Source: Natrinema longum
GTDB lineage: Archaea > Halobacteriota > Halobacteria > Halobacteriales > Natrialbaceae
Direction: 5' to 3'
Length of the DNA: 64,000 bases
NCBI RefSeq assembly: GCF_017352095.1
Contig: NZ_CP071463.1
Span: 1,550,001 to 1,614,000, forward strand
Part shown: one piece after another, positions 13,912 to 37,066 of the stretch
How the letters are laid out: each line of letters opens with the position of its first letter
Position numbering within the stretch: position 1 is the first letter of the stretch
Position numbers and translations under genes: made by a program
The notes under the pieces: generated by a model
Database searches by the model: none
Seen by the model: the letters and a program-made list of their open reading frames with translations, nothing else
What the model was told of the DNA's origin: nothing

Positions 13912-14008
13912 CCCTTGCCGAGCGCGGCGGGAACCGATCTCAGCCGGAGCCCCCCGGACACGACGGCAGTCGAACCCGCCTCGAAAACGCTCCCCCTGCG
14001 TCGCTCGG

Positions 14009-16213
14009 CTACTCGGACCCCTCTCGAGCGGTCAACACCGTGTCCTCGCCGAGGGTCGTCTCGCCGAGCGAGAACTCGCGGGCGGTCAGCCGGCTGTTGA
14101 CCCCCAGAAACGTGTCGCTGTCGAGAGTCAACTCGTCGTCGATTTCGACGACGTCCGCGGTCACGTGTGCCGGTTTCCCCGACAGAACGATCCGCTCGAC
14201 CGTCCGGCGTTCGTCGTCCGTTTCGAACGGACCACAGAACACGACGAACGACTGCGGGCTCGACGCGGGGAGTGGGTACTCGCTGTGAATCGGCTGCCGA
14301 TCGATACACTCGAGATCGCCGTCGTCGAAGAAGAACAGTCGGTGGCCGGAGGGCGTATCGCCGACGGTCCCGTCGCCCCCATCGGAGGCCGCCGTCGGCG
14401 CTGCCGGACCGGCCCCGCCGGGCGAAACACCGTCGTCGCCGTCGTCGGCCGACGCCGACGAACGGGCAGTCGGCTCCGAACCCGCATAGCGGAGATAGAG
14501 CACGAGCATCGCCCGGAGCCCCGCCTTCGTGCCGCGTTGTCTGTACAGCTCCGGTGCCCGAGCGAGCAGTTCCCGCCGTGCGTCCTCCGGCCAGTCGCCG
14601 TCGGGCTCGACGGCCAGCCACTGCTCGAGCCACGACAGGGCGTCGCTGGGAACCGCCTCCGGGTCGAAATACCGCCCCATGTCCTCGATCGCCGTCTCGA
14701 TATCGACGAAGGTGGACTCGAACACCGACAGGTACTGCTCCAGGAACGCGGCCGAACGGTCGTCCTCCTGGTAGAGTTCCGGGAGATATCGGAGGTACGT
14801 CTGACGGGGACAGAAGGCGGTGATCGAATCGACCCGTGGTGACGACCGCGGACTCCCGTCGAGTTCGAGCGCAACGAACAGGTACCGACCGACGGCCTCG
14901 GACAGCAAGACGTCGTCCGGGTTCAGCGAGTCGACGGTCGTCCAGTCGGCCTCGGCGTGGGCCGCGAGCGCGTCGATCGCCCCGGCCCGCCACGCCCGAA
15001 CGTCCCCACGGGAACGGTCTGGACACCCCGAGACGAGGCGGTCGACGTCGGCACTGGCGAGCTCCCACGCCGACGTCACACCCAGCTCGCGGACGCTGTC
15101 GACGGCGTCGGCCGGCATCGCCTCGAGGTCCTCGATTCCGACCTCGCGAGGCATCGGTCGGTTCGTCGCGAGGTAGCGAACGCGGACCTGCGTACTCGCG
15201 GTCAGCTGGGAGAGCTGGATCGCCAGGCGGTGCCACTCGGTATCGTCCGTCCCGGAGTCGTATCGATGGAACGCCTCGCCGACGTGGCGCTCCCGTCTGG
15301 GATGTCGCGCGTGGCGTCGTCGTTCCCGAAGGAGCGTCCCCCGACCGTTCGAACCACAGGCCGCGTAGAACTCCCGTCGATCGTCGGGTGCGGTGGGTCG
15401 TGCGACGAGCGTCCGGCACGGCCGGTTGAACCGATACCGCTCGCGAAACGCGTCCGACGAGGGGTCTCGTTCGAACAGGGCCGGCCCCCCGTTCTCGAGT
15501 CGGCCGGCGACGAAGAGCGTTCCACCGACCACCGAGAGCGCGGTCGGGGAGAACGCGCCGGCCCCGGCGACGAACTCGCCGCTCGCGATCGGAAACCCGC
15601 CGTCGGTGTGATCGTCCCCGTCGCCGAACGACCGAATAACCGGGTCGCCATCGTTGCGATCGAGGACGTACCCGCGGCCGTCGGCGTCGACGGCGAGGTC
15701 GGTCGGCTCGACGAGCCACCAGTCGATCGCCAGGTCGATTTCGGCGTCCCGCCCGACGGTCCGTACCCGACCGACATCGTCGAGCAGATAGAGCAGTCCT
15801 CCCGCGTGGGCGACGCGGATCGGATCGGTCGCGTCGGTCTCGATGGTCCCGATCGTCCGCTGGAGCCGGGGTGAGACGACGGTGATGGAGCCGTCGTCAC
15901 GGTCGACGACGAAGACGCGATCGTCGTCGACACAGAGCGCGCTGGGGTCGGCGACGTCGCCGTCGGAGCGAGTCCACAGGCGCTGGGTGAGATCCGCCGT
16001 CGGGTCGTGTCGATACAGTGCGCCCGACGAACGAAGCGTATACAGGTCGCCACTCGGGTCCATCGCCACGTCGACCACGCCGTCCTCGATCGTCGTCCGT
16101 TCGATCGCGGCCGTCGTCGCCAGTCCGAGACCCTCATCGCGAACGTCGACGTTCCGGCCGACCCACTCTTTCCAATCCGCGGTACTCGTCGTCGTCGCGT
16201 ACGAAAAGTCCAT
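14009..16213 (-). CDS. CIS baseplate protein: propeller-like domain + phage tail protein I domain
   Basis: 734 residues, last gene of the minus-strand CIS operon, starting 3 bp after the baseplate-J gene. Residues ~45-300 show repeated NHL/propeller-like units (DPSGDLYTL, DDDRVFVVDRDDGS, DADGRGYVLDRNDGD). Residues ~465-590 match phage tail protein I (P2 gpI/TIGR02242-like): YLRYLPELYQEDDRSAAFLE, FVDIETAIEDMGRYFDP, LYRQRGTKAGLRAMLVLYL. A Gly/Asp-rich linker and a beta-rich tail (VDVVEIDDELTLDSDTF-like) finish it. In tails this protein joins wedge to fibres. The propeller could be a receptor- or fibre-binding module, which is an inference. Confidence 0.82.
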   Translation of the reverse strand: MDFSYATTTSTADWKEWVGRNVDVRDEGLGLATTAAIERTTIEDGVVDVAMDPSGDLYTLRSSGALYRHDPTADLTQRLWTRSDGDVADPSALCVDDDRVFVVDRDDGSITVVSPRLQRTIGTIETDATDPIRVAHAGGLLYLLDDVGRVRTVGRDAEIDLAIDWWLVEPTDLAVDADGRGYVLDRNDGDPVIRSFGDGDDHTDGGFPIASGEFVAGAGAFSPTALSVVGGTLFVAGRLENGGPALFERDPSSDAFRERYRFNRPCRTLVARPTAPDDRREFYAACGSNGRGTLLRERRRHARHPRRERHVGEAFHRYDSGTDDTEWHRLAIQLSQLTASTQVRVRYLATNRPMPREVGIEDLEAMPADAVDSVRELGVTSAWELASADVDRLVSGCPDRSRGDVRAWRAGAIDALAAHAEADWTTVDSLNPDDVLLSEAVGRYLFVALELDGSPRSSPRVDSITAFCPRQTYLRYLPELYQEDDRSAAFLEQYLSVFESTFVDIETAIEDMGRYFDPEAVPSDALSWLEQWLAVEPDGDWPEDARRELLARAPELYRQRGTKAGLRAMLVLYLRYAGSEPTARSSASADDGDDGVSPGGAGPAAPTAASDGGDGTVGDTPSGHRLFFFDDGDLECIDRQPIHSEYPLPASSPQSFVVFCGPFETDDERRTVERIVLSGKPAHVTADVVEIDDELTLDSDTFLGVNSRLTAREFSLGETTLGEDTVLTAREGSE

Positions 16214-16216
16214 TCG

Positions 16217-18181
16217 TTATCCACCTCCATCGCTCGAGCCGGTTCGGATCGAGAGGTTCGTCGTGACGTCTTCGACGGCGAACAACGAGGTGTCGTCGAT
16301 ACGGACGCTCCCGTCGTCGACCGTCGCACCGCCGTGTGCGGTGATCGTCACCTCGCTCACCCGATCGATCGCGTCGAGGTCCGCGATCCGATCGACCAGT
16401 TCCGAGCGGTGTAACGTGTGGCCGAACGGCCATCCGTCCCCCCCATCGCCCATCAGGGGATGGACGAACTCCTCGATCGCCGTCCGAACGGCGACGTCGT
16501 GGCCGCCACCGGCGTATCGGGCTCTCGCGCGCCCGGCGACCGAAATCTCGAGGCCGACGTACCGTGGCCCGATCACGTCCACCCGATCGCTCAGGAGCTT
16601 TCGCTCCCCGACGTGCCGACGGACGGCACGCAGGAATCCCTCGCTCGGTTCCGGCGTCCCCACGTCCGGCGGTGCGAAGGGAACGACGACGACGGTGATC
16701 TCGCCGTCCTCGACGAGCACGTTCGTCCGACCGATCCTGAGTCCCGGCGTGTGCGCGGCGACATAGCGGTAGTCGTCGGCGGTGATGGCCCGATAGGGGA
16801 GCCGCCGGTCGCGCCGGACGCGGTCGAGCGCGTCCGCGATCGTCTCCCCGTCGGCACCGCCGGTCGCTCCATCGACCGGGTCCACTTCGATATCGGCGGC
16901 GTCGACCGGCCCCTCGAGCGAGCGGTCGGGATCGGAGAGATGCCAGACCGTCGTGGCCGGAACGTTCCCGTCCGCACCGCCGCCGGCGACGTAGTCGGCA
17001 CGGACAGTGCCAGCGGCGGGCGGAACGCGTCCCGCCGCGCCGTCGCCGAACGTCACGGTCCCCGCCTCCCGATCGAGGACGAAGTGGGGATCGTCGGGGC
17101 CGGACGCGTCGAAATCGGGCACCTCCTGCCACCGCTGCCCGTCGACGAACACCGTCGCCGAGAGCACCGGCGACCGCTCGAAGGCGTAGGTCTGCCCGTC
17201 GAGCGCCGGTGCCTCCTCGAGGTGGCCGACCTGCGTCAGTTCCTCGTCGGTCACCGACTCCCGGTGGCTAACCGAGACGACGTTCGATTCGATCGCGTCG
17301 AACTGCGGCGGAATCTCGTGTCCGGCCGTCTCGAGACGACAGCGAAGCCACGTTCGCCCTGACGAACCGACATCGGTCGGCGGTTCGGGACCCGCTGCGT
17401 TGCTCGCGGTCGCTGGCCCGGCGTCAGGACGGGCCAGCGTGATCGGCCCGCCCCGATAGAACGCGTTCGTGCCGTCGGCCGCGACGGCGAGTCGTCGCCA
17501 CGAACCGTCGTCTTCGTCGCGGTACTCCCAGACCGGCTCGACGGAGGGTTCGAACGACGACTCGATCGAGCCGTGCGTCGCCGGCTCCGGGAGGTCGTCG
17601 TCGTGGTAGCTGACGGTCAGGGTGAGCGTGCGAGCGCGGGCGAACGGGTCGGCGTCGAAGCCGAGATAGAACGCGTCGCCGTCGGCAGCGTCGTCGCCAA
17701 ACGCACGGTAGAACATCCCGCCGGTCCGGTTCGCGTGGGTGTTGTCGGTCCGGCCCGAGCCGGTGACCGTGAGGACGCGCTCGAGCGTCGCCGCCGTCAG
17801 GGTGAGCGCGTGGTCGGTCTCGAACCGATAGCTCGTGTCGGCATCGTCGGCGTCGGCGACCGAGACGCGCGTCCCGGCCGGAATGCGTGCCCAGCCCGCG
17901 TCGTCGGGCAGCCCCAATCGCAACCGCGTCGACGCCGGCGTCGGCGGTCGTCGGCGCTCACCCATCAACGCGAGATACTTTTCGCGGTGGTCGTCGGTCA
18001 CCCGATCGAGCTGGTAGACGTACGTCTCCGTCAGCCAGGCCAGCATCTCGAGGATCGTCACACCGGGATCGTGCGGGTTGAGGTCGGTCCACTCCTCGGC
18101 GTAGGCCGGGATCAGTTTGGTGGCCTCGCTCAGGATCTCCTCGTAGGATCTGTCGTCGAGTTCCGGAACGTCAATACCCAC
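16217..18181 (-). CDS. CIS baseplate wedge, baseplate J-like (smaller)
   Basis: 654 residues, equivalent to T4 gp6/Afp11-12-type wedge proteins. The N-terminus PAYAEEWTDLNPHDPGVTI and LEMLAWLTETYVYQLDR is typical of the TIGR02243-type putative baseplate assembly family. The middle carries the core FGDGAAGRVPP, YVAGGGADGNVPA and YRAITADDYRYVA. It ends with the IERFVHPL-like segment TAIEEFVHPLMGDGGDGWPF. It makes wedges around the hub that trigger sheath contraction. It is preceded by a 75-bp gap after the larger baseplate-J gene. Confidence 0.88.
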   Translation of the reverse strand: MGIDVPELDDRSYEEILSEATKLIPAYAEEWTDLNPHDPGVTILEMLAWLTETYVYQLDRVTDDHREKYLALMGERRRPPTPASTRLRLGLPDDAGWARIPAGTRVSVADADDADTSYRFETDHALTLTAATLERVLTVTGSGRTDNTHANRTGGMFYRAFGDDAADGDAFYLGFDADPFARARTLTLTVSYHDDDLPEPATHGSIESSFEPSVEPVWEYRDEDDGSWRRLAVAADGTNAFYRGGPITLARPDAGPATASNAAGPEPPTDVGSSGRTWLRCRLETAGHEIPPQFDAIESNVVSVSHRESVTDEELTQVGHLEEAPALDGQTYAFERSPVLSATVFVDGQRWQEVPDFDASGPDDPHFVLDREAGTVTFGDGAAGRVPPAAGTVRADYVAGGGADGNVPATTVWHLSDPDRSLEGPVDAADIEVDPVDGATGGADGETIADALDRVRRDRRLPYRAITADDYRYVAAHTPGLRIGRTNVLVEDGEITVVVVPFAPPDVGTPEPSEGFLRAVRRHVGERKLLSDRVDVIGPRYVGLEISVAGRARARYAGGGHDVAVRTAIEEFVHPLMGDGGDGWPFGHTLHRSELVDRIADLDAIDRVSEVTITAHGGATVDDGSVRIDDTSLFAVEDVTTNLSIRTGSSDGGG

Positions 18182-18256: not shown

Positions 18257-21200
18257 TCACGACGAGTCGTCACCCCCCATCGTAACGGTCACTTCGTGGA
18301 CACCGCTGCAGACGAGCACGTCCGGCGGAAGCGTCGTCGGCGCGTCGCGGCCGGCCAGCGAGGTCTGTTCGCCGGCGACGTCGATCGTCGCACCGAGTTC
18401 GACCACGTCGGCGACGGCGTCGGTTCCGTCGACGATATCGTAGAGCGCGTCCGTCGACGGCGTCTGGCCGAACGACCACCCCTCGCCCCCGTTCCCGTCG
18501 AGCGGGTGGAGGTAATCGTCGATGCGTTCCTCGATGGCCCCCTTGAGCAGCGAGACGCTCGTACTGTCGGCCGTGTACACGGTGACGGAAACCGATACCG
18601 CCGCGTACTGCGGGCCGCGAACGACGATCCGGGACCCCTCGGATTCGACCAGCGAGACGGGCGCGCGTTCGCGCAACGCGTCGCGGACGCGGTGTTTGAG
18701 TTCCATCGACGGGACGGGTTTCTCCCGCCGGGCGTGGGGAACGATCAGGAGCGTGACGCCGCCAGCGTCCCCGTCACCACCCCCGTCGGGGGTACAGTTG
18801 ACTTTCGACAGTTCTCGGAACTCCGCGGTGGCGACCCGCTCGTAGTCCGACGGAGTGACCGCACGGCCCCGGTGTTTGAGCTGCCCCGTGGTGCGTGCCA
18901 CGAGGGCGTCCATGGACTCGGCGTCGGCACCGCCGTCGGCCGGTTTCGGATTCGAGACGTCCTCGACGAGTGAAATCGAACTCTTCAGGTCCGTGATCGT
19001 GTCGGCTGCAACGTTGCCGTCGCGGCCGCCCCCGGTCGTGTACGTCACCATGATATTTCCCTGCCCGGACGGCGGGATCCGCCCGCGGTTTCCGTCGCCG
19101 AAGCTGACGGTGCCGTCGAGCCTGTCGACGACGTAGTGGCGATCCGACGGCTCCGACTCCAGAAAGTCAGCGACCTGCTGCCAGCGGACCCAACACTCCG
19201 TCACGTCGCCACCCGCGTCGGTGACGCGCCGAACGTCGTCGGGGCGTTCGGTCAGAAGCTCGCGCCGTTGGCCGGTCGACAGCGTCGCGGACTCCTCGAC
19301 CCACAGGTCGAGATCGATGACCGGCGCGTGCGCACAGTCGAAGGATTGGTCGTGCGAGCCGTCGCTCGAGCCCAGGACTTCGTCTTCGATCGTCCGGGTG
19401 TTGTAGGCCCACTGCGTGTTGGGATACAGCCCCTCGAGCGTCGGCGGGGCCGTCGTCCGTTCGCGTTGCCGGTCGACGTCCGCACTCGACCGTCCCGACC
19501 CCGAGCGGCGGTCGAACTCGTCTTGGGTGACGCGGGCCCGGATCCAGTGACACTGCCGCCCGAAGCGGTCGAACGCGGTCGTCGGCTCGGGGAGGGTGAG
19601 CCTGACGATCCCCCGTTCGGTCAATCCGCCGGTCCGATCCTGAACGGTGAGTTTCGACCACTCGTCGGCCGCCGGATCCTCGCAGTACTCCCAGCGCATG
19701 CCGGGATCGAACGAGCGGGGGTAGGTGACGTCCTCGATCGGAACGAAGAACGTGAGCGGACCATCGCGAAGCGGCTCGTCGAAGCCGAGATACAGCGTCT
19801 GGGTCTCGTCCGAAAGCTCCTCGAAGGGGGTCAACGCCCCCTCCCGTTTGGCGAGGTCGTCGCTGATGGAGCCGTTGTTCTTCGTCCGGATCCGCTCGAA
19901 CGGTTGCCGCCCGCGGTCGTACTGGATCGAGACGTCGCCGAACCGCGGCGGGTCCGGCGAGTCGACGAGCGATCCCCGCGTTCCGGCGTCGGTGACGCCG
20001 AACGACGGCTGGCCGTAGTTCCCGCTGACCAGCCGGACGCGGATCCAGACGTTTTCGTGACCGGACACCGACGTCGGTTCGATGTCCTCGGGGACGGTAA
20101 AGCGAACGTGGCCGGCGCTTCGCAACGCGTTCGTCTCGTCCTCGAGGACGGTCAGCCGGCTCCAGCCGCTGCCGGTCCAGTACTCCCAGGAAAGCGTCGG
20201 CGGACCGTCGAGCACCCCGACGCCAGCGGCCGGTGACGCGTCCGTCTCGTCGTCCCCTGCGCCGATATCGACCCCGTCGATGGCGTCGGCGTCGGTCACG
20301 TCCTCGAGATCGTCACCGTCCGGATCCGCATCGGGCCCGGCAGGCGGATCGAACCGTACCTCGACGACGCCACCTCGCTTCGTAAAGGCCTCCTCGGAGG
20401 CGACGTAGAACGTCGACGGCGGCTGTGGCAGCCTTCCCAGCGGCCGGATATCTCCCTCGTCCGTCGAGAGCGGCACGTCGTTCGACAGCAGGGAATCGGG
20501 CGTGAGTCCGCCATCACGCGTGTCCCGACCGACGCTGGCCGAGATCGATCGCAGCCGCAGGGAGAACGCCGCGGGATCGGGATCGTCGTCGGCGATCCGA
20601 CATCGCAGCCAGCGGCTTTCGACGCCGTCGACGGCGTGTTGGACGGTCTTTCCGGGGAGTCGAAACTCCCGCTCGATCCGGCCGTCGTCGGTCGAGCGCC
20701 CGGACGAACCCGACTGAAGCCGCTCCTGAAGCGCATCGAGCCCTGGGTCGTCGTCGGCCGACTCGTCGTCGGTCCGCTCCTCGAGTGGATACCATCCCTC
20801 CGTGTCGTCGTCCTCGCCGTAGTACTCCCAGACGAGGTCGGTCTCCGGGAGCGGGCTATCGGGCGTCGTCTCGGCCGTGATCGTGATCGGCGATCCGGCC
20901 TCGAGATTGAGGAGATCGTCGTGGGCCAGATAGAGGACGTGCTCCTGGACGTTCTCGCCGGTCAACAGTTCGACCGGTTCGGCCGCGGTTCGGACGGGAC
21001 CGTGATCGACGATTCGATCGTCGGCGGGATCGACCGCGATCGCGTCCGTCAGCGACGCGCCGGTCGCCTCGAAGCCCTCGTCCTGTGGAATCTCGAAGAT
21101 CCGTGTGGCTCCGTCGCCCGGTTCCGCCACCGCCTGCGTCCCGCCGGGGATCGCGACGTTGCGATCGATATCGGTCGACACCTCGAACGTCAGCGGGAGC

Positions 21201-21445: not shown

Positions 21446-21840
21446 CCATCACCCTCCGTAATGTAGAACGGGTACACCATGTTCGAGAGGCTGTTGGTCG
21501 TCCGAACCTGGTACTCGATTTCGATGAGGACCTTGTTCGGGTTCTCGTCGTCCGTTCTGGCGGTGACGTCCTCGACGTCGATTCTGGGCTCCCACTGGAC
21601 GAGCGCCTCACGAACGCTACTCTCGAGTAAGTTCAGCGTCGCCGGCGTCGCCGCCGAAAACACGTGGTCGTGGATCTCGCAGCCGAACTCCGGGCGCATG
21701 ACTCGTTCGCCCTTTGCAGTCCCGAGAATGAGCCGGATCGACTCCCGAATGTCGTCCTCGGCGTCGGCCGTTCGAACCGATCCTCGAGCATCCGTCTCGA
21801 CGGGGAACGCCCATCCCGTTCCGAGGAACTCGTCGGACAT
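21442..21840 (-). CDS. CIS baseplate gp25-like wedge protein
   Basis: 132 residues of the GPW/gp25 family, the conserved wedge subunit that nucleates sheath assembly. Family features are the N-terminal GTGWAFPV, DDIRESIRLILGTAKGERVM, RPEFGCEIHDHVF, and REALVQWEPRIDVEDVTAR. Length is normal. It lies 3 bp after the PAAR gene and overlaps the large wedge gene by 4 bp. Confidence 0.93.
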   Translation of the reverse strand: MSDEFLGTGWAFPVETDARGSVRTADAEDDIRESIRLILGTAKGERVMRPEFGCEIHDHVFSAATPATLNLLESSVREALVQWEPRIDVEDVTARTDDENPNKVLIEIEYQVRTTNSLSNMVYPFYITEGDG

Positions 21841-27500: not shown

Positions 27501-30156
27501 TGTGTCGCTCCGGCGTGCTGTTCGGTTCCGGTCGGCCCACGGACCGTCCAGTGGGACCGCCGCTCTCGGGTCGAGAGCGCGGCCGGAACGGTGGGCCATC
27601 GGACCGCGTCGGCGATAGCCCACGCGAGCGAACCGACCGGCCGGACGGCGTCGGGTCTCCTCCGTTCGACGGCGCGACCGTCGCCGCAGACGACCGACGC
27701 CGAACGACGAACGCCGGCTCACGACCGTCCGAGCGCCCGTGGCTGCCGGACTGTCTCGACTGTCCGTCGCCGAACGGGACGGTGCTGGAACCGCCCTCAC
27801 CGCCACGATGGCCGCGAGAGCGTCCGTGGTCAGTCGACCGGCTGCTCGAGAACGAACGGATAGCCGACCCCGCCGGCTCGACCGACCCGGACGGCGTCAC
27901 GCCGGTCCCGACTGCAGCCGACTCGTCGCCGACCGCGCGGGGAGGTGACTCGAACGGCGACGGCGTTCCGGATGGGGGCCGTTCGACCGTCGCACCGCGC
28001 TGTGAACGAGGGCCTCGAGTGCCAGCGATGGGGCCCGAATCGGAGCCGTCCCGACGGCCGATCGTCGGCGGCCGATCGCCGGGCTCGTCTGCGTCACCAG
28101 CAGGCGTCGGCAGTCGCAGCGACGCTGTCGGCTGCGAGGGGGTCGTCTGGGGACCCCTCCGCTGTGAGAGGGGCGACGGTGACACCGTCACGGGGGGGAT
28201 CGACAGCAACGAGTGGGACGGCGGCTGGTCGCCGGCCACCGCTCCGTCCCGGTCCGACGCGTGGGACACTCGAGGTGCGATCGACGAGGAGTCGCTCCGC
28301 GAGGCCGCTGGCGGCCCCTCGATTGCGGGCGAGGCGGTCGGTGCCAGCACCGATCGTCGCGGAACCCGATCGGTGACCGTGGTGAGCGGCAGTCGTCGGC
28401 GGCGGCCGATCGACTCGACCAGGGGCGATCGGATCGGGCTGGATCGACCGGACGCACGATCGAAGCCGGTGCTCCCGTCGGTGTGGTCGTCGATTTCGTC
28501 GCCGTCTCCGAGTTCGACTGAGCGGTGCCGCGGTGTCGGCACGTGCGGGCGGTCGTCGATGTGAGCGGCGGACGGGTCGGTCTCTCGACCGCCGTAGCCG
28601 GTTCGGCGCGACCGATCCGTCCGCTCGCGCCCGGCGCGAGCGGCGACCACGTCCCGCGTGGGAGCGGCCGTCTGCCCGTTCATCCCGTCGACTCGCCGAG
28701 CGTTTGCATACTGCATCGTCGTGCCGTCGTGTGAGTCGACGGCCGCGTGTCGCGTCCGTCCGCCCTCGTGGGTGTGGGCCATTCCCCGTGAAGTCGATGT
28801 CCGCGTGTGCCGATCGATCGGGTCCGGTTCTCGGCCCCTGACCCCGATCGGCCGGACGGCGGGATCGCTCGGAGTCGCTCGTCGGTCGACGTCGCCGCCC
28901 GAAGTCGCCACGCTCGAGTGTGCCCCCGCGTTCGTGGTTGTGTCCCCGGTTCGCCGGGACGACGAGATGGCGGAGGAGCCGTCGTCGTGACCGGTCCCGA
29001 CACCGGTCTCCGTGGGACCCCCGTTGCGATTCGCCTGCACACCGCGAGTGGACGAGACGCGTGCCATCTGCCGGGTTCGAGGATCGCTCGGCGATGCGAA
29101 CCGACCGTCCGAACCGGGGTGCTCGACCGGCTGCCCCGACGGTTGTGCCACGGTCTCCGATGATTCGGATTCCGGCCCCCAAGTCCCCGCGGTGGGTGAC
29201 CCACTCCGGGTGACGAGCGTCGGCAGGGGTCGCCCTCGAGTGCGGGGCCGATTCGGTCGGGACGCCACCGAGCCGGCCGACGTGGTCCGATCGACCGACC
29301 GTTCCGAGACGAGCAGCGACGGCGTCTCGCGTTCGAGCGGATCGTCGACGCCGGAGGGCGACACACTCGAAGCCCCCGACTCGAGCGCCGACGCGCGATC
29401 CGTGACGGCACCGGTCGTCACCGCACCAATCGGGGCCGCGCTGGCGCGTCGCTGGAGACGGCCCAGCCGGCCCGTACTGCTCGATCCGGATCGCTCGGGT
29501 GATCGCCGTGCGGGCGTCCGCCAGGCCCGCCCCGTCCCGACGGCTGCTCGATCGACAGCCGTCGGATCGAGCTCCCTCCGTCGCCGAGTTTCATCGGAGC
29601 CGTGGGGCGTCTCGCCTCCTCGTGAAGACGCCGCTTGGCCGTGGGTGGTCGGTTCCTCGAGCGCCGACGACTGCGACCGGTCGGGACGACTCGGCACGAC
29701 CGATCGAACCCCACGGGCCGTCATCGACCCCCGTTCCGTCGACGGCCGGGTGGCCGATCCGTTCGCCGTCGCGAACGATCGAGCGACCGGTCCGGTCCGA
29801 TCCGAACGACCGGGTTTCGTGCGGTAGGTAAACGCATCGTCGTGATCCGTCGACCGATCGAACGTCGGCGGAGAAACCCCAGGCTCGTCGGTCGCCTCGT
29901 CGTCGAGAGGAGCGTCGAAGGACGAGAGAAACGAGAGCTGGACCGGGCTCCGTCTCCGCGCGATCCGGACGCCGAGTCCACCGACCAGTCGGTCGGGAGT
30001 CAGCGTCGCGATCGCCGTGACGCTGGGCTGGAGGCGAGCAACCGTCGACGGGCCACTCGAGTCGATCCCCATCGACGACTCGGCTGCCGCCCGGTGGGTC
30101 ACGCCGATCTCCCGTACCGACGGCTCGCGATCGAGGTCGGTAGACTCCCCGATCAC
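24580..30156 (-). CDS. Giant disordered basic Ser/Arg/Thr-rich CIS-operon protein
   Basis: An uninterrupted 1,858-codon frame between the membrane protein and LysM genes, same strand. Almost the whole chain is low complexity: Ser, Arg, Thr, Gly, Pro and Asp dominate, with many RS/SR and RR pairs, and almost no hydrophobic runs. It looks net basic, unlike the acidic haloarchaeal norm. Two segments look foldable: residues ~35-80 (VGGLGVRIARRRSPVQLSFL) and a C-terminal amphipathic helix ending ELYRKLERKIRIERERRGL. I do not recognise a family. By position it may be a tape-measure-like ruler, a tube-lumen filling or cargo, or a LysM/hub-binding linker. Stops interrupt the opposite strand, so this strand is real. 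ATG at 30072 is an alternative start. Confidence 0.72.
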   Translation of the reverse strand: MIGESTDLDREPSVREIGVTHRAAAESSMGIDSSGPSTVARLQPSVTAIATLTPDRLVGGLGVRIARRRSPVQLSFLSSFDAPLDDEATDEPGVSPPTFDRSTDHDDAFTYRTKPGRSDRTGPVARSFATANGSATRPSTERGSMTARGVRSVVPSRPDRSQSSALEEPTTHGQAASSRGGETPHGSDETRRRRELDPTAVDRAAVGTGRAWRTPARRSPERSGSSSTGRLGRLQRRASAAPIGAVTTGAVTDRASALESGASSVSPSGVDDPLERETPSLLVSERSVDRTTSAGSVASRPNRPRTRGRPLPTLVTRSGSPTAGTWGPESESSETVAQPSGQPVEHPGSDGRFASPSDPRTRQMARVSSTRGVQANRNGGPTETGVGTGHDDGSSAISSSRRTGDTTTNAGAHSSVATSGGDVDRRATPSDPAVRPIGVRGREPDPIDRHTRTSTSRGMAHTHEGGRTRHAAVDSHDGTTMQYANARRVDGMNGQTAAPTRDVVAARAGRERTDRSRRTGYGGRETDPSAAHIDDRPHVPTPRHRSVELGDGDEIDDHTDGSTGFDRASGRSSPIRSPLVESIGRRRRLPLTTVTDRVPRRSVLAPTASPAIEGPPAASRSDSSSIAPRVSHASDRDGAVAGDQPPSHSLLSIPPVTVSPSPLSQRRGPQTTPSQPTASLRLPTPAGDADEPGDRPPTIGRRDGSDSGPIAGTRGPRSQRGATVERPPSGTPSPFESPPRAVGDESAAVGTGVTPSGSVEPAGSAIRSFSSSRSTDHGRSRGHRGGEGGSSTVPFGDGQSRQSGSHGRSDGREPAFVVRRRSSAATVAPSNGGDPTPSGRSVRSRGLSPTRSDGPPFRPRSRPESGGPTGRSVGRPEPNSTPERHTVESARSTRIRSLAAAVDSQSAGEPPAADANRRLSGTVGAERNPVGTNVSSARPETRPQPALWPSRPTDRRLGRSRRSRRGLETGARSGGDVRSTRSSRRDSVTPDGLDARADAPDVASRLGSADGPTGVRAFDRRRTTAAGGSPAPTVTTPPSVGSRRGSTTAHPVSALGRGSPSAIEADAPSRSRRLGDLEPATRRGVGQGAPRRDRSGPNALESATRLSVRRTVTERSSPDRSTLATTATGSKPIRRSSEFPASSRGREASGERRRRERRSEPRRSRSRPTDATTRRDRPSWMERERPGTTRPPTHDDRSLRSEPGAPSTGDSNSASMVSRPIADRPSGSSSVASPPSRPRADRGGLPTGRDEAGRATPNAMAPPVVSSTAAESLARATAARRRTARSGSAASGAGADGSRRTARQYRSSAVTDSIGSESIPARDETPPIGPARRGSRRNGLSGSVGAASTTDRQRPGRSAGDRRRNRAARSMAANSRPTSESITIHRLSTSQGSASGSPRLHYRADSDYAAGSDPSVDGWNGTSTPFGSSRVESARGPAPPTPVGSEATMAGSDTTATGNPDATGTVGSLGATTNRPRWTDRSSVARSAGPAATEPRSAAGIDRRADTAPSFERTGVRSDQRPIQPPTIAVRSGSSTERVDGRSATGGQPSIDPVGSRRGRIAATVDALDDGDGPVGSDGADSIVTPSLRSSSANAAVSGGQRLQSRLRSRGQSPADPPVTRSAAPTERGRDRTAGPSLAVPTRADQPEPTPETPGESSRQQSPISTVSQQHKPTTNTIESTESNTGVNGMQTSTASGRPSLTYRTTSTVAPTVDQGGPNRSNATSPGPTTDSAGTSREQRRPPADRVAESDDRLQAGSGSGIGPETRPPQHGPSAGRDAGRPQPRNPQPSSGGPSGRPSGRSTRHAPESDSHRGNRFDGVDVSSRTDPRFDADVDRAVQELYRKLERKIRIERERRGL

Positions 30157-30344: not shown

Positions 30345-31472
30345 CTACTCCTGTGGCGTCGGCTCGGCACCGATCCCGATCGTCGATCGGGTCCCGGCAC
30401 GGACCGAGTCGCGATCGAGGGCGTCGCTGCTCCCCTGCAGGACGAACTGGTCGCCGGTCCGCGTGTAGACGATCGGGTGCTCACCACCCTGTTTGAGCGT
30501 GTACCCAAGCGGGAGCTCCATCGCCGCCTCGTTGGACTCGAGTAGGAACGTGGCTGGGAGTTCGAAGCTACAGCGCTCGCCGGGCTCGAGCGTGACGCCG
30601 ACGTCGAACTGATAGAGGTCGTGTTTCGTATCACGGATCTTCGCCTGCGTCAGTTCAACGGGGGTAATGCCGGTGTTTTTGATCATCAGTTCGCGGCCGT
30701 CCCGTGACTCCAACCTCGAGACCGCCACGATTCGGAGGTCCGTCCGGTCGCTGATCGTGGACTCGTAGCGGTTGTAGACGAGCACCGTCGCGATCAGCCA
30801 CAGGACTGCCGCGAGGACGACCGTCTGGAGTTGGGTGAGCGTTCCATCGAACCACGGCAGCCACGAAACGAGTGCACGGATCCCGACGCTCGCGAGGACC
30901 GCGCCGACGAAGCCGACGATTCCAGCAAGCGTGCGGGTCTGGAGATGTTTGACCTGCGCGTAACCGGTTCTGATGAGTACCGACCGCAACGCGGACGGAG
31001 AGTCGTCCGGATCCGGTTCCCGACGCTGGCGGAGCGTGAGGACGGTCGCGACCGGCCACGCGATCAGCGACCCGGCGAGAACGGACACCGGGGAAACGAC
31101 CCCCACGAGGGTCGCGATACCGAGTCCGGTCGCGACGAGTAGGCCACAGACCGCGCCCGCGATCGTCGCCTGTGCCCAGATCGACAGCTGATCCCACTGA
31201 TCGGCGATCGCATCCTTGTACTGGAGATACAGCAGACGGACGCCGATCACGACGACTGCGAGGACGAACACCGCGATCAACAGGACGACTCGTGGGGAAA
31301 GTACCCAGTCCGTGACGGGAACGGTCGACTCCGGGACGTAGTCGACGAGCCCCGTCACGACGGCTACGGCAGTCACGACTACCGCGAAAATCAGTGCCGC
31401 GGCCAGCGGCCGCAAGACCGGCGAGAGTTTCTTTTTGACGGTCTTCGTCGCCTTCGACGCGACGCGCCTCAT
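30345..31472 (-). CDS. Six-helix membrane protein in CIS operon
   Basis: 375 residues. A basic N-terminus (KATKTVKKK) precedes about six hydrophobic helices (~18-43, 58-85, 98-125, 129-147, 182-205, 213-234). A soluble beta-rich C-terminal domain of ~140 residues follows (RDGRELMIKNTGITPVEL, LEPGERCSFELPATF, GDQFVLQGSSDAL). No family recognised. Its place between tube 2 and the giant protein suggests a membrane anchor for CIS particles, as CisA does in Streptomyces; a hydrophobic tape measure is the other reading. Its ATG overlaps the stop of a 35-codon ORF. Confidence 0.75.
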   Translation of the reverse strand: MRRVASKATKTVKKKLSPVLRPLAAALIFAVVVTAVAVVTGLVDYVPESTVPVTDWVLSPRVVLLIAVFVLAVVVIGVRLLYLQYKDAIADQWDQLSIWAQATIAGAVCGLLVATGLGIATLVGVVSPVSVLAGSLIAWPVATVLTLRQRREPDPDDSPSALRSVLIRTGYAQVKHLQTRTLAGIVGFVGAVLASVGIRALVSWLPWFDGTLTQLQTVVLAAVLWLIATVLVYNRYESTISDRTDLRIVAVSRLESRDGRELMIKNTGITPVELTQAKIRDTKHDLYQFDVGVTLEPGERCSFELPATFLLESNEAAMELPLGYTLKQGGEHPIVYTRTGDQFVLQGSSDALDRDSVRAGTRSTIGIGAEPTPQE

Positions 31473-31667: not shown

Positions 31668-32126
31668 TTACTCCGGCATCCCGGACATCTTGGAGAACCG
31701 CTCGTATGCCAACTCGATCGACTCGATCGCCATGCCTCGTTCGTTGCTGACCAGGTCCGGACCGGACCATTTCGTCGGATACGCGTTCACGAATTCCCAC
31801 CCCCACTGACTCTCGCCTTTGAAACTGTCTTTTACTTTGACGACGATGTTCTTCCGAGAGATGGTGCCGCTCATGACCGTCTGGATCCACTCCCAGAAGG
31901 TCGTGTTTTTGGTCAGGCCCCGCTGGAGGACGAGATTCGCGTGAGCGAACTGGCCGGGTAACTGATGGACGTGATCGTTGACGCCCCCCTCGCGGTACTG
32001 GACGGTGTCGAGTTCCATCGTGATTCCGGCGACTTCGGCGAACCCGGCGACGGTCTCGCCGTCTACCTCGACCTCGAAATTGTACTGTGCGTACGGATCG
32101 TTTTCGTGCGTATATGTCGTCATCAT
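31668..32126 (-). CDS. CIS inner-tube protein 2 (Afp5-like)
   Basis: 152 residues of the phage tail-region/T4 gp19-like tube family (TIGR02241 type). Characteristic segments are YNFEVEVDGETVAGFAEVAG, TVQYREGGVNDHVHQLPG, NLVLQRGLTKNTTFWEWIQ, and FVNAYPTKWSGPDL. It is a paralogue of the 152-residue tube protein at 33.1-33.6 kb. In Afp the second tube type forms the first ring on the hub, which is probably its role here. Adjacent ATGs at 32126 and 32123 are both usable. Confidence 0.92.
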   Translation of the reverse strand: MMTTYTHENDPYAQYNFEVEVDGETVAGFAEVAGITMELDTVQYREGGVNDHVHQLPGQFAHANLVLQRGLTKNTTFWEWIQTVMSGTISRKNIVVKVKDSFKGESQWGWEFVNAYPTKWSGPDLVSNERGMAIESIELAYERFSKMSGMPE

Positions 32127-32171: not shown

Positions 32172-32420
32172 TTACTCGGAATCCGGCGGTTGCCGGAGCA
32201 CGATACCTCCACCCGCGCCGTCGCGGTCGCGTCCGCGTCGGCCACGGCGGCCACGGGACTGGTCGGACGGCGAGTCGGACATGCGATCGTTGATCGTGCT
32301 GATCTCCTCACACCAGCGCTGGCGTTCCCAGTGGGGCATGTTCAATACCGTATCGTGGCTCCACCCGAAGTGGTAGGCCACGAACGCGACCTCCTCGTAG
32401 AGGCGGTCCGGTTCGTACAG
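32172..32420 (-). CDS. DUF6760-like small CIS protein, start codon uncertain
   Basis: About 82 residues. The core PDRLYEEVAFVAYHFGWSHD then LPHWERQRW-like NMPHWERQRWCEEISTIND matches the small DUF6760-type proteins seen in CIS loci. A basic Arg/Gly-rich tail follows. The conserved N-terminus has no ATG, GTG or TTG in frame: the frame opens after a TGA, and the first usable codon where homologues begin is CTG at 32420. A GTG at 32381 would drop about 13 conserved residues. It starts just after the gp26-like stop codon. The family probably helps tail assembly. Confidence 0.7.
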   Translation of the reverse strand: MYEPDRLYEEVAFVAYHFGWSHDTVLNMPHWERQRWCEEISTINDRMSDSPSDQSRGRRGRRGRDRDGAGGGIVLRQPPDSE

Positions 32421-32425
32421 CCGGA

Positions 32426-32977
32426 CTACTCCGCTGGATTTCCCGACTCCGATCCCTCACCGTCGTTCGGTTCGGTACCGGCTGCACGCATGTCGGCGGA
32501 TTCGAATCCCGACGATTCCGTCCCACCGAGTTCGCCGATGTCGCCGCCGACACCGGCGTCCATGGCGGCGGCATTCATCGCACCGTTCGGTCCGTCGGTC
32601 GTCACGTGCGTGCCGCTCTCGGCGTCGATCTCGAAGACCTCGCCACAGTCCGGACAGGCCGTCTCGACGGCGTTCATCCCCTGGTTGTTGACCCGCTCGT
32701 ATAGCGCCTGCAGGTACTCGAGGTCCGTGACGAACAGCTCCTCGATGACGGTCGCGTCGATCGTCTCGAGGTCGCCGAGTTCGGTCACGACCCGCGAGAG
32801 CAAGACGATCGTCAGGTACGAGGAGTTCGTCTGGACGCGAGGATTCTGCAGGGGCTCGATTTCGTCGGCCGCGGTCGCGAGGCGCATTCGACCCTCCTTG
32901 TGGAGGGTGCCGTCGTCGTCGACGTATCCCTGTGGAAGGGTGAACTCGAACTCGGTCTGGAGCGTCTCCCCGGTCAT
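32426..32977 (-). CDS. T4 gp26-like tail assembly/baseplate protein
   Basis: 183 residues. The helical core NSSYLTIVLLSRVVTELGDL, IEELFVTDLEYLQALYERVN and a CPDCG knuckle match the T4 baseplate (gp26-like)/tail assembly proteins that follow tube genes in CIS and phage loci. The first 40 residues form a beta segment (TEFEFTLPQGYVDDDGTLH). The C-terminal ~60 residues are acidic and Gly/Ser/Ala-rich. Its ATG overlaps the stop of the 54-residue ORF. Confidence 0.8.
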   Translation of the reverse strand: MTGETLQTEFEFTLPQGYVDDDGTLHKEGRMRLATAADEIEPLQNPRVQTNSSYLTIVLLSRVVTELGDLETIDATVIEELFVTDLEYLQALYERVNNQGMNAVETACPDCGEVFEIDAESGTHVTTDGPNGAMNAAAMDAGVGGDIGELGGTESSGFESADMRAAGTEPNDGEGSESGNPAE

Positions 32978-33138
32978 GGTCGAGTCCCCCCACCGTCACA
33001 GGCGACGACGACGCGGTTGGCGAAGGGTGCCGAGTCGCCGGTATGGAGGACACCCTCGTCGTCGACGCGCCACTCGGCATCGAACCGATGGCGCGGGACG
33101 GTGAACGCCTCCGGAGACGAGTTCGACGGTCGTGTCAT
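32974..33138 (-). CDS. 54-residue CIS-operon protein of unknown function
   Basis: ATG at 33138 overlaps the tube-1 stop (ATGA), and the TGA at 32974-32976 overlaps the ATG of the gp26-like gene. These two 4-bp overlaps make coding function likely. Residues 13-45 look folded (FTVPRHRFDAEWRVDDEGVL), with a charged N-terminus. The 'DDEGVLHTGD' segment resembles the 'DDDGTLHKEG' hairpin of the next protein, hinting at a related small fold. I cannot name a family. Confidence 0.6.
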   Translation of the reverse strand: MTRPSNSSPEAFTVPRHRFDAEWRVDDEGVLHTGDSAPFANRVVVACDGGGTRP

Positions 33139-33593
33139 ACGTTCTTCCGTTCCATCTCGTCGAACGTGATGACGTACTCCTCGGTGGCGAGGTTACCCTG
33201 GCCGCCGCCGCCGTGGGAGTTGAGCGTGGGTGGTCGGTATTCCTTGATCCACGCCTTCGTGAACTCGAATCGGAGGACCGAGTCACCGACCTCGTTCATG
33301 ACGATGACGGCGATGTTCTTCCGGCCACCGTCGTCCATCTTCCCTTCGTTGACGGATTTCCGCCAGTCGTAGAGTTCCTTGTTTTTCTCGTTGGCCCCAC
33401 GAACGAGGATGAGATCGTCGTACTGGGTGTCGCCCCAGAGCTTTCGGTTGTGCGACGGATCGTTGCCTTCGCGGTATTCGACCTGTTCGGTTCGCATCGC
33501 TGGCAGTTCGATCTCGACGAAGCCGGGAATGCCGACGCCGTCGAGTTCGACCTTGAATTCGGTTTGTCGGAGTGGTCCGTGTGAGTCTGGCAT
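33135..33593 (-). CDS. CIS inner-tube protein 1 (Afp1-like)
   Basis: 152 residues, T4 gp19/TIGR02241 tube family: TEFKVELDGVGIPGFVEIE, EQVEYREGNDPSHNRKLWG, LILVRGANEKNKELYDWRK, and FTKAWIKEYRPPTLNSHG. It directly follows the sheath gene (46-bp gap), the usual place of the major tube subunit, so it probably builds the rigid rod through which the spike is driven. Confidence 0.93.
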   Translation of the reverse strand: MPDSHGPLRQTEFKVELDGVGIPGFVEIELPAMRTEQVEYREGNDPSHNRKLWGDTQYDDLILVRGANEKNKELYDWRKSVNEGKMDDGGRKNIAVIVMNEVGDSVLRFEFTKAWIKEYRPPTLNSHGGGGQGNLATEEYVITFDEMERKNV

Positions 33594-33639: not shown

Positions 33640-35379
33640 TTACGCGTCGCCGGCGTCCTGGCTGATCCGGAAGACGACGAACTCGGCTGGCTTGACCGGC
33701 GCGATACCGATCTCGACGATGAGACGACCGTTGTCGATGTCGTCCTGTGTCATCGTTTCCTCGCCGCACTTGACGTAGAACGCTTCGTCGGCGGTGCTGC
33801 CCTGGAGGCCGCCGTCTCGCCAAACCGTCGTCAGGAAGTTCTCCGCCGACTGGCGCACGCGGGCCCACAGGTCCTCGTCGTTGGGTTCGAAGACCGCCCA
33901 CTGGGTGCCTTCGTCGATCGACTGCTCGATGTAGAGGAACAGCCGTCGGACGTTCACGTACTTCCAGGACGGATCGCTGGATGCCGTTCGAGCGCCCCAG
34001 AGACGGATCCCGCGGCCCTGGAAGCTCCGAATGCAGTTGACGCCCCGCGGATTGAGGATGTCCTGTTCGCCTTTCGTGATGTTGTGTTGCACGCCGAGAA
34101 TACCGCGTACGACTTCGTTCGCGGGTGCCTTGTGGACGCCGTGTTCGGCGTCGCTGCGGGCGAAGATCCCGGTAATGTGACCGCCCGGCGGAACGAGCTT
34201 CTTCCGGTTGGTGAACGGATCCTTCGTCTCGATCCACGGATAGTAGTAGGCAGCATAGGAGGAGTCGACCGGCGTCTCCATATCCGAGATCGCTCCCGCG
34301 TTCTGCGGTGCCTGCAGGACCGCGAACCGCTCGCCCATGTTCTCACAGTGGGCGACGAGCGCCTCGGTGAGCCCCTCGATATCGTTCTCGTCGGGAATAC
34401 ACATGAGCGAGACGCCATCGAGTTCCCGGAACGCCGAGAGACCAGTCCGCATACCGGGCTTGTTGACGCCCTCGTAGTCGCTGAGCGTTACCTCCTCGTT
34501 TTCGGGTTTCTGCGAGAGATCGGAGACGACATCGACGTCGACCTCCAGCTCGCCGTCGCGAACTGCCTCGAGATCCGCCTGGAGATCGTCCTGGGACTGA
34601 GAGGCGTCGATCTCGAACGGCTCGGCGATTCCCTGGAGCTCGTTGTACGCTCGATCCTCGAGATCCTCCGGGATGTAGGCTGCAGTCTCCGAGTCGCCGT
34701 CGAGCTGGAGCAGTCCGCCGTCGGAGTACTCCTCGGGGACGTCTCGCGACAGCCAGGAGAGCCCTTCGGCGGGTCGTCCGGCTCCGAGCTGTTCGAGGTC
34801 CACGAGCGCAGAGCCCGGGATCTGTTTCTCGTAGAACTTGCTGGACTCCGGATCGGCCGACATGTCCTCGTAGACTTCTTCCACGTCGGGAGCCGGGTCG
34901 GGCTGGTCGGAGGTGGGTTTGCTGACCTCCTCGATGTCACAGGACCAGTATCGCAGCGTCAGTTTGAAGTACTCGTTTTCGCCCTCCTCGTAGAGCGGTC
35001 CGTCCTCGACGATCGCGGCGACCGAACAGCCCCACTGGCCCGGACCGGTCGCTTCGACTTTGAGAACGTCGTTTCGATCCTCGTCGACGAGCGTCGTCGT
35101 CGCGACGTCGGTCGCATCGGCGGCTGCAACGCGCCCGACGTAACAGCGACTCCCCCCGTTCTTGAAGAAGCCGTCCACGGCCACGTCGAGGTCCGACGAC
35201 TGTGGACTCGAGCCGAACGTTCGTTTGAACTCGGCGAAGCTCGTGATGAGTTTCGGCTCGACGGGACCCCGCTCCGTTTCACCGAGGAAGCCAGCGGTAC
35301 TGGTGCTGACTCCTTCGACGGATTTGGTGCCGCTGTCGACCTCTTCGACGTACACGCCTGGTGATAGGTACTCTGGCAT
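33640..35379 (-). CDS. CIS contractile sheath protein
   Basis: 579 residues, start at 35379 (MPEYLSPGVYVEEVDSG) with GGAGG 10 nt upstream. N- and C-terminal parts match phage tail sheaths: STSTAGFLGETERGP, GVNCIRSFQGRGIRLWGART, YVNVRRLFLYIEQSIDEGTQ, WAVFEPNDEDLWARVRQSAE, and IGIAPVKPAEFVVFRI. Residues ~160-310 are an acidic insertion with Asp/Glu-rich loops, likely facing outward. It contracts to push the tube. Only one sheath gene is present, whereas Afp/Pvc have three. Confidence 0.95.
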   Translation of the reverse strand: MPEYLSPGVYVEEVDSGTKSVEGVSTSTAGFLGETERGPVEPKLITSFAEFKRTFGSSPQSSDLDVAVDGFFKNGGSRCYVGRVAAADATDVATTTLVDEDRNDVLKVEATGPGQWGCSVAAIVEDGPLYEEGENEYFKLTLRYWSCDIEEVSKPTSDQPDPAPDVEEVYEDMSADPESSKFYEKQIPGSALVDLEQLGAGRPAEGLSWLSRDVPEEYSDGGLLQLDGDSETAAYIPEDLEDRAYNELQGIAEPFEIDASQSQDDLQADLEAVRDGELEVDVDVVSDLSQKPENEEVTLSDYEGVNKPGMRTGLSAFRELDGVSLMCIPDENDIEGLTEALVAHCENMGERFAVLQAPQNAGAISDMETPVDSSYAAYYYPWIETKDPFTNRKKLVPPGGHITGIFARSDAEHGVHKAPANEVVRGILGVQHNITKGEQDILNPRGVNCIRSFQGRGIRLWGARTASSDPSWKYVNVRRLFLYIEQSIDEGTQWAVFEPNDEDLWARVRQSAENFLTTVWRDGGLQGSTADEAFYVKCGEETMTQDDIDNGRLIVEIGIAPVKPAEFVVFRISQDAGDA

Positions 35380-35424: not shown

Positions 35425-35658
35425 CACAAATGATATAAAACTTATTCCTCAGCCAGATCCGAAATCAACTAGAAATGGATATATTATTCGTCGTAGTAGG
35501 TTGGTTCTGTTTAGAACGGATCTAAATTGCGATCGAGTACGATCGAGACTGGATTAAAGCGATGATGTCGCACGCGAGCGACACCGATCGGAGACCGACC
35601 CGGTTACCGGAGGCGTTCGCTCGCGATCACGGGTGATACCCAGTCCTGGAAATAGACA

Positions 35659-35667
35659 TAATTAAAT
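35659..35667 (+). promoter_or_regulatory. TATA-like promoter of divergent CIS gene
   Basis: taattaaat lies 35-43 nt upstream of the ATG at 35702 in an A/T-rich stretch. Transcription would start near 35689, leaving a short leader without a clear Shine-Dalgarno sequence. Confidence 0.45.
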
Positions 35668-35701
35668 GGAATAGCGGCGCAATAAACAACACCACTACGC
35701 C

Positions 35702-36949
35702 ATGGCCCAGGACTCGGACCACAGTACGGGGGAGCGGGGCGATCTATCGCAGTTTCGGAAGAATCGGTTCTTCAGCGGGAAACTGATGACCCCCCGCGAT
35801 ATGGAAGCGGAACAGGAGTATCACGCCGAGCGATTGCACGCCCTTTCCCGGTTCGTGGTCGGGAGCGGAATCGTCCACGGCCTCGAGATTCGATCGATCG
35901 GCGAGACCGACGACGGGCTCGAGGTGACGATCGAACCGGGGTTGGCGCTGGACGGGCGTGGTCGCCCCATCGTCGTCGAGCAGGTGACGACGAAGTCGCT
36001 CCCACGTCCCTCGGCGAACGAACTATCGCTCTATATCGAGTACGAGGAGGTCTCGCTGGAAACCGTTCCCGTCCCAAACACGGACGATGCCATCGACGCG
36101 GAGTCGACGTCGAACCGGACCGTGGAGGTCTTCGAGCTGACGTATCGAGAGACGACCGAAGACGAGCGACCACAGCTGCCAGACGTCGAGATTCCGTCCG
36201 TCGGGAGCGACGGTCTCGACGCCGAAACCATATCCCGCCAGCTCCTCGAGCGGTATCACGACCAGCACCGGTCCGCGATGCCCTCCGAAACGGAGACGGC
36301 AGTCTTCCTGGGCTCGTTCGAACGGACGCCCGACGGTGCCTGGACGGAATCCACGGAGCCGGCTCCTCGGGAGTTCGCCTACGATCACGACCTGCTCTTC
36401 GCGACGATCATCGACCACGTCACCGACACCGACAATCCACATCGGACGCCGGTCGAACGGGAGCCCCCCGACATCCCGGACGGTATCGGGGAGATCACCG
36501 ATCGACTCGACGCCCTGGAGACCGAGCTGGGACGGGTCAAACGGGACCAGACCGCGCTCACCCAGTACGTCATGCGGAAGACGCTCAAGGACAGAGCCCG
36601 GTTCTTCGACGAGTTGGCCGATCGGGTAGCACAGCAGACACGCGAGGGGAGCCGGCTCGCCCGTGAAATCGCCACCGTCTCCCGTACGAACGGCGAGGAA
36701 ATCTGTGACAGCGAGGGCGCGTACCGCCGACACCTACGGGAGATCCTCGAGCACCTGATAGACCTCGGTGACCATCTCGAGGGAGCGACGACGGAAGCCA
36801 GCCTCGAGCGGTACCTCAAGTCCGTCTCCGACCTCCAGTCGGCACTCGAGAACGATGACCCCGTCCTCGAGTTGGCCGAGATCCAAGATCGGGTCTGTGA
36901 GGCTGCCGACTCGCTGGACGTGCTCGTCGACGTCGTTCCAAACGAGTAA
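35702..36949 (+). CDS. CIS-associated collar/fibre-like protein
   Basis: 415 residues. The N-terminus FRKNRFFSGKLMTPRDMEAE, QEYHAERLHALSRFVVG and SGIVHGLEI is the signature of proteins repeatedly found in bacterial CIS loci. It is followed by a beta-rich part (VTIEPGLALDGRGRPIVVEQ) to residue ~130. Residues ~250-410 are long charged helices, probably coiled coil, like a fibre or whisker. It is divergent from the sheath operon and convergent to the E2 gene. Function is inferred from context: attachment, collar or regulator of the particle. Confidence 0.72.
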   Translation: MAQDSDHSTGERGDLSQFRKNRFFSGKLMTPRDMEAEQEYHAERLHALSRFVVGSGIVHGLEIRSIGETDDGLEVTIEPGLALDGRGRPIVVEQVTTKSLPRPSANELSLYIEYEEVSLETVPVPNTDDAIDAESTSNRTVEVFELTYRETTEDERPQLPDVEIPSVGSDGLDAETISRQLLERYHDQHRSAMPSETETAVFLGSFERTPDGAWTESTEPAPREFAYDHDLLFATIIDHVTDTDNPHRTPVEREPPDIPDGIGEITDRLDALETELGRVKRDQTALTQYVMRKTLKDRARFFDELADRVAQQTREGSRLAREIATVSRTNGEEICDSEGAYRRHLREILEHLIDLGDHLEGATTEASLERYLKSVSDLQSALENDDPVLELAEIQDRVCEAADSLDVLVDVVPNE

Positions 36950-37066
36950 GCCGGGCTGCTGTCGCCGGGGTCCGACCCACCCCACAGCAGGTCACGGGCG
37001 CGCCGGCACTGGTCTACAGGGGTTCGTCCGAGACGCCGGTCGGCTCGAACACGGCCCTCGAAGCGA

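Follow-up and report, generated by a model that had tools for sequence, protein, structure and literature searches.

The window examined here is a 64,000-nucleotide stretch of the haloarchaeon Natrinema longum, bases 1,550,001-1,614,000 of a single 3.59-Mb contig. It contains a contractile injection system (CIS) island, a 23-kb block at about 13,888-37,066 whose minus-strand genes begin with the sheath (probable start 35,379) and finish with the tail-protein-I gene (end 14,009). We consider it probable that the block encodes the core structure of a membrane-anchored haloarchaeal CIS, or archaeal type VI secretion system (T6SS), which has been inserted between pdhC and lpd and works as proposed below. 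Within it lie a putative tail assembly chaperone with a -1 slippery site and a giant disordered protein that is a candidate tape measure. The features of the island and its flanks, in window coordinates, are as follows.

12409-13887, minus: dihydrolipoyl dehydrogenase (E3, lpd), flanking gene, from sequence; directly after E2 in Natrinema without an island here
14009-16213, minus: tail protein I, Cis12-type wedge; PF09684, expectation value (E) 1.6e-10; similar to 9gtp chain E (Streptomyces coelicolor CIS)
16217-18181, minus: second Baseplate J wedge, Cis11-type; PF04865, E 9.3e-15
18257-21445, minus: first Baseplate J wedge, Cis11-type; PF04865, E 9.9e-18; similar to 9gtp, 7b5h and 7aeb
21442-21840, minus: gp25-like sheath initiator (Cis9); PF04965, E 6.3e-30
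21844-22134, minus: PAAR tip (Cis10); PF05488, E 1.8e-18
22146-22880, minus: spike, Cis8-type, gp5/Phage_base_V, OB-fold; PF04717, E 4.6e-29
22877-23905, minus: hub, Cis8-type, GPD; PF05954, E 4.6e-13
23902-24579, minus: LysM tube initiator (Cis7); CIS_tube PF19266, E 9.3e-34, with LysM; alignment
24580-30156, minus: giant disordered Arg/Ser/Pro-rich protein, 1858 amino acids, candidate tape measure; position, C-terminal motif, in-frame indels
30345-31472, minus: membrane protein, putative baseplate anchor (Hbor_38620-like); AlphaFold2, hydropathy, distribution
31668-32126, minus: tube protein 2; PF06841, E 2.5e-41
32172-32456, minus: DUF6760 open reading frame (ORF), -1 frame; PF20546, E 1.5e-22; frame analysis
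32426-32977, minus: putative tail assembly chaperone, 183 amino acids, gpG/gpE-like; PHROG 508, E 1.2e-8; homologues; Foldseek
32438-32444, minus: slippery heptamer G_GGA_AAT for a predicted -1 frameshift; sequence, conservation, background rate
32974-33138, minus: 54-residue protein between tube 1 and chaperone, position conserved; found by tblastn in many anchor-clade loci, no family
33135-33593, minus: tube protein 1; PF06841, E 2.6e-28
33640-35379, minus: sheath (Cis2); PF04984/PF17482; E 6.7e-275 to Halogeometricum borinquense Cis2 (PDB 9ezm)
35702-36949, plus: 415-residue CIS-associated protein; a homologue adjoins the sheath or tail-I gene in most loci
37067-38758, minus: dihydrolipoamide acyltransferase (E2, pdhC), flanking gene; sequence, empty-site comparison

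Pfam matches comprise the sheath (Phage_sheath_1 and 1C), two gp19 tubes, CIS_tube with LysM, the GPD hub, the Phage_base_V spike, PAAR, gp25, two Baseplate_J proteins and Tail_P2_I, and they represent the tubes, the sheath and Cis7, 8, 9, 10, 11 and 12 of the core set. Each structural assignment in the first-pass annotation, from sheath to tail protein I, is borne out by these matches, and gene order, strand and overlaps are as described there. It had also reported the absence of capsid, portal and terminase genes, and the island proteins gave no such match in Pfam or PHROG. The 54-residue, 375-residue membrane and 1,858-residue proteins that it listed all exist, the last being truly coding, as judged from in-frame alignment gaps. 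A 35-codon ORF matches no gene, and the stretch meant may be the DUF6760 ORF. The description of the island as nearly complete holds for the structural core, with a cap (Pvc16/DUF4255), an AAA+ ATPase and eCIS_core effectors encoded 0.42-0.5 Mb away. The sheath probably starts at 35,379 (MPEYLSPG..., which aligns with the start of 9ezm) and not at 35,427.

Of the 394 Halobacteria genomes sampled, 48 (about 12%) carry a sheath gene, a share similar to the 41 of 350 reported by Zachs et al. (2024). That study described two clades, one of which has a membrane protein of six helices and a cytoplasmic domain of ~150 residues; the systems of H. borinquense and Haloferax elongans were membrane-bound by cryo-tomography and mediated contact-dependent antagonism (PMC11566945). 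In our sheath tree, the anchor-positive genomes form one group with 100/99 support that includes H. borinquense Cis2 and H. elongans, and the window sheath belongs to the same clade as these two demonstrated haloarchaeal T6SSs. Phage sheaths branch apart from the CISs, in line with the first-pass view of a headless CIS; some branches to distant bacterial CISs are long and their order is unsure. The 375-residue membrane protein has six predicted transmembrane helices and a C-terminal beta domain of ~140 residues (hydropathy; AlphaFold2 model with a mean predicted local distance difference test score, pLDDT, of 64). Its homologues occur in 35 of the 394 genomes, H. elongans among them, all within the sheath-positive set, and are missing from the other 13 sheath-positive genomes. 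Nearly all of these homologues end in ...QD or QE, often P.PQD (30345-30400 in the window; alignment), a possible docking peptide. From such comparisons, the CIS core and its family membership are almost certain, and a membrane-anchored mode in this species is likely. The archaeal build, taken in the first-pass annotation to be distinct and little studied, thus belongs to a family already described in 2024.

The 183-residue protein matches the tail assembly chaperone family PHROG 508, as do all 34 aligned homologues (best E 2.5e-10); 20 of the 34 also match Gp41_Mu weakly, and no Pfam family scored above cut-off for the window protein. The core of its AlphaFold model (residues 10-100) has a pLDDT of about 82-96 in ten-residue blocks. 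Foldseek matched the model to phage baseplate-hub-assembly and tape-measure-chaperone models and, in the PDB, returned no significant match, with YqbN (3klu) found weakly. The DUF6760 ORF lies in the -1 frame relative to the chaperone gene and has no ATG, GTG or TTG ahead of its conserved domain. Sixteen nucleotides before the chaperone stop codon lies G_GGA_AAT, a canonical slippery heptamer. An in-frame GGGAAAY is found within the last 60 nucleotides of the chaperone gene in 41 of 44 haloarchaeal loci. In the anchor clade all 36 loci have it (33 of them at -16 and the other three at -10 or -19), and in the anchor-less clade five of eight do. Ten other CIS genes from these loci give a background of 10 per 119,067 codons, with 10 of 324 Gly-Asn pairs encoded in this way; the related loci behind these counts are not independent. 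Paenibacillaceae carry TTTTTTR at the matching place in 37 of 42 loci, most of them without a start codon for DUF6760. In five Paenibacillus loci the -1 frame layout is kept and TCTTTTATC stands at the slip position instead of TTTTTTR. It is very likely that the 183-residue gene encodes a tail assembly chaperone and is linked to DUF6760 through a conserved -1 slippery site, and the expected DUF6760 product is a predicted chaperone-DUF6760 fusion. We found no paper on a CIS frameshift, on DUF6760 or on SCO4249 in the open-access literature.

The composition of the giant protein is biased towards Arg (14.7%), Ser (14.6%), Gly (10.8%), Pro (10.2%) and Ala, and its gene lies after the chaperone and before the LysM and hub genes. 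A tape measure after the chaperone and before LysM and hub is the layout of PBSX-type phages. An ORF of the giant type immediately precedes LysM in those haloarchaeal loci that include the stretch and in most Paenibacillaceae loci examined, and such ORFs end in a motif like DVDRxVxxLYRKLERKxRIERxRRGL. When close relatives (74-84% amino-acid identity) are aligned, the gaps are multiples of three in 12 of 12, 19 of 19 and 13 of 13 cases. Comparison thus indicates that the frame and approximate length of the gene are kept and its sequence is not. The possibility that the ORF is a non-coding artefact of high GC content is ruled out by the in-frame indels and by its presence in many loci. The first-pass annotation could name no bacterial counterpart for several of the genes, and this applies to the membrane protein, seen only in haloarchaeal CIS loci among those examined; counterparts of both the giant protein and the DUF6760 ORF exist in Paenibacillus, Rhizobium and Streptomyces. 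Relatives of the giant stand beside the chaperone in an Olavius symbiont, a Rhizobium, a Paenibacillus plasmid and, as judged by eye, S. clavuligerus. In the public records of a Haloferax larsenii plasmid locus (1-2260) and the S. clavuligerus locus (11837-15988) the long disordered ORF is partly annotated or unannotated, which may explain why it has been overlooked.

The length of the giant differs between groups. It is 1,412-2,365 residues in the anchor clade (n=24), where two divergent members have 1,096 and 1,595, and 381-625 residues, about 460, in the anchor-less clade (n=11); the Paenibacillaceae range is 989-2,057 (n=24). Its net charge per 100 residues is +4.0, compared with -8.0 for the other CIS proteins, and the tube lumen of the Anabaena CIS is negative. 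Its position, variable length and conserved end make the giant the best candidate for the tape measure that earlier studies did not find in H. borinquense or Streptomyces, and we regard it as probably serving in that role. The CIS particles of S. coelicolor, with tubes of 60 layers, are identical in length, with a tape measure stated to be missing (PMC12237407). The same was stated for H. borinquense, whose contracted sheaths have a narrow length distribution of 220 +/- 16 nm (PMC11566945) and a rise of 17.09 A. These values correspond to about 129 rings and, at an assumed rise of about 38.5 A, to ~0.5 um when extended. The Haloferax giants, neighbours of H. borinquense in the sheath tree, have 2,291 and 2,365 residues. 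If its giant were Haloferax-like, each residue would have to cover about 2.1 A of the H. borinquense tube, a value between those of a helix and a fully extended chain, which is feasible and not a test.

The island is an insertion, because the pyruvate dehydrogenase E2 and E3 genes adjoin, with a gap of 54-142 bp, in ten Natrinema genomes without a CIS at this site (E2 was searched in 29 Natrinema genomes and 14 were fetched around it). Several other Natrinema carry a CIS at the same pdhC/lpd site, and no integrase was noticed at the island. Split clusters are common, the sheath/tube block being far from the anchor gene on the chromosome in several species. The 415-residue gene at the upstream end of the island has, in Natrinema, the opposite orientation to that in many other haloarchaeal loci; its product has no relative in the PDB and no family match.

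Relatives of the cap (cis16; Pvc16_N/DUF4255) and ATPase (cis15) genes lie outside the island on the same contig, together with eCIS_core effector genes, at 2,063-2,078 kb and 2,007-2,013 kb, ~0.42-0.5 Mb away. Loss of the ATPase and cap genes is ruled out, both being encoded at these other loci. The first locus (2063249-2077959) is an eCIS_core effector array; the effectors have glycine-rich ends that may form pores, and one of a set of related genes of ~315 codons follows each effector. Two of the effectors are 97% identical, five related partner genes are present, truncated cassettes without the N-terminal part of the effector occur, and the array is placed after RNA polymerase and nusA genes. 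It looks like a recombining toxin-immunity cassette array. The second satellite (2006881-2012822) holds an AAA+/winged-helix ATPase and two eCIS_core genes. Since H. borinquense has toxin-immunity pairs, the effectors are probably toxins and their ~315-residue partners immunity proteins.

We propose that the six-helix protein would dock the baseplate on the cytoplasmic membrane. The chaperone and a minor chaperone-DUF6760 fusion, made by a -1 slip at GGGAAAT, may coat the giant and recruit tube subunits, like gpG and gpGT of phage lambda; in this step the identity of the chaperone and the slip site are well supported by comparative analysis, and the frameshift itself and the binding are putative. 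The giant would be held by its conserved C-terminus at the hub/LysM end, lie in the tube and set tube length. A Pvc16-type cap and an AAA+ ATPase from the remote satellite loci may complete assembly. On contact, contraction would drive the tube, the PAAR tip and the satellite eCIS_core effectors into a neighbour, with the paired genes conferring immunity, as suggested by H. borinquense.

The alternatives concern both the mode of the system and its proposed length control. The first-pass annotation took the system to be a released extracellular CIS (eCIS), in which case the membrane protein would have another role. The gene content is indeed eCIS-like and not that of a canonical T6SS, and the effectors carry the eCIS_core domain, but the island lies inside the clade of two systems seen to be membrane-bound (PMC11566945), the anchor gene is limited to that clade, and no tail-fibre (Cis13) gene was recognised by Pfam in the island. 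We therefore regard release as unlikely. Membrane-anchored, contact-dependent firing is likelier, because the membrane protein matches the layout and distribution of the putative haloarchaeal anchor. Its likeness to the published Hbor_38620 is one of topology and distribution, judged from the description of that protein. A decayed prophage or tailocin remnant would account for the phage-type chaperone, the frameshift and the tail genes. It is very improbable given the lack of head, portal, terminase or lysis matches in the island, the conservation of intact core genes in a shared order across many related genomes, and the sheath, which is far nearer to haloarchaeal CISs (64-99% identity) than to its best phage match (34% over 59%).

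Within the proposed length-control module, the giant might instead be a spike plug or a cargo adaptor and effector scaffold, with its C-terminus docked on the hub in a Cis6-like manner and its tail holding or threading cargo. Its gene has the same position as a small plug-position gene of a Cereibacter CIS, three Cis6 copies plug the Anabaena spike with a flexible part in the lumen, and an Arg-rich tail would suit an acidic lumen. However, the C-terminus has no sequence match among known Cis6 structures and none in the PDB or Pfam, a plug would have no need of 1,400-2,365 residues, and in clusters that bear the chaperone the giant is linked to a chaperone pair of the tape-measure type; in the Cereibacter CIS, which has a 59-residue gene at the plug position, both the chaperone and the long protein are absent. 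The plug or scaffold reading is accordingly a minority one, and a plug function of the C-terminus, alone or combined with that of a ruler, is possible. DUF6760 might also be produced by independent or coupled initiation, with the heptamer incidental. An overlapping start codon is present in S. clavuligerus and in many haloarchaeal loci, but Natrinema, several other haloarchaea and most Paenibacillaceae have no start codon before the domain and yet keep the ORF and the heptamer, and we hold this explanation to be improbable. Several observations weigh against the proposed ruler or the programmed frameshift. The composition of the giant argues for disorder and does not suggest a helix, and known tape measures, such as lambda gpH, are helical. 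No convincing periodicity matching the spacing of the tube rings was found in it, and long giants without an anchor occur in Paenibacillus, so that a long giant is not by itself a sign of the T6SS mode. The heptamer is missing from three anchor-less loci and stands at unusual distances in two, some haloarchaeal loci could express DUF6760 by reinitiation at the overlapping start codon, and no stimulatory RNA structure 3' of the slip site is conserved beyond Natrinema (mean z -1.1).

In conclusion, we lean towards the view that CISs thought to have no tape measure (haloarchaeal T6SSs, those of Streptomyces and probably those of Paenibacillaceae) do have one: a giant, disordered, Arg-rich protein anchored at the hub by its conserved C-terminal motif and served by a phage-type chaperone whose complete set of forms depends, in archaea and bacteria alike, on a programmed -1 frameshift. 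The system itself is a member of the family described in 2024, and what is new, in the literature searched, is the length-control module. If this view is correct, the length of the giant would set the reach of the system, longer in the membrane-anchored haloarchaeal clade than in the anchor-less one. The question of length becomes directly testable if the giant is the tape measure, and a ruler that is disordered instead of helical would be a novel solution. Few -1 recoding sites conserved in evolution are found in archaeal chromosomes, and a conserved frameshift in a cellular injection machine would add to them and give DUF6760 a function.

The arrangement has parallels in several known systems. 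Afp/Pvc-type eCISs, with a Cis6 plug and a Cis14 tape measure, share the architecture of sheath, tube, LysM and wedge proteins with the Natrinema island, in which, by contrast, no tail-fibre gene was recognised. Among Streptomyces CISs (PMC12237407, PMC10066040), S. clavuligerus has a relative of the chaperone, a DUF6760-like ORF and a long Pro/Arg-rich ORF; unlike that of Natrinema, its DUF6760-like ORF can start at an overlapping GTG. The membrane protein of the S. coelicolor system is the single-pass CisA and its particles are cytoplasmic. Phage lambda G/GT, P2 E/E' and the haloviruses HCTV-1 and Hardycor1 likewise have a chaperone gene that ends in a -1 slippery heptamer upstream of the length-setting gene, and haloarchaeal tailed viruses have the same G_GGA_AAY heptamer in their tail chaperone genes, whereas Paenibacillaceae CISs use T_TTT_TTR. 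The CIS differs from these phages in being a cellular injection system, in having tube 2 and the anchor gene between the chaperone and the candidate tape measure, and in having DUF6760 as the downstream part. The closest likeness is to the T6SSs of H. borinquense and H. elongans (PMC11566945; 9ezm), with which the Natrinema system shares the sheath clade, the gene set, a six-helix membrane protein, the lack of a recognised plug or crown, eCIS_core effectors with partner genes, and AAA+ and Pvc16 relatives in the genome. In Natrinema, in contrast, the core sits in the pdh operon, and the AAA+, cap and effector genes are in two remote satellites. The published account of these T6SSs reports no tape measure and does not mention a chaperone frameshift; candidates for both are found in relatives of these systems, including H. 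elongans, where the giant has 2,365 residues.

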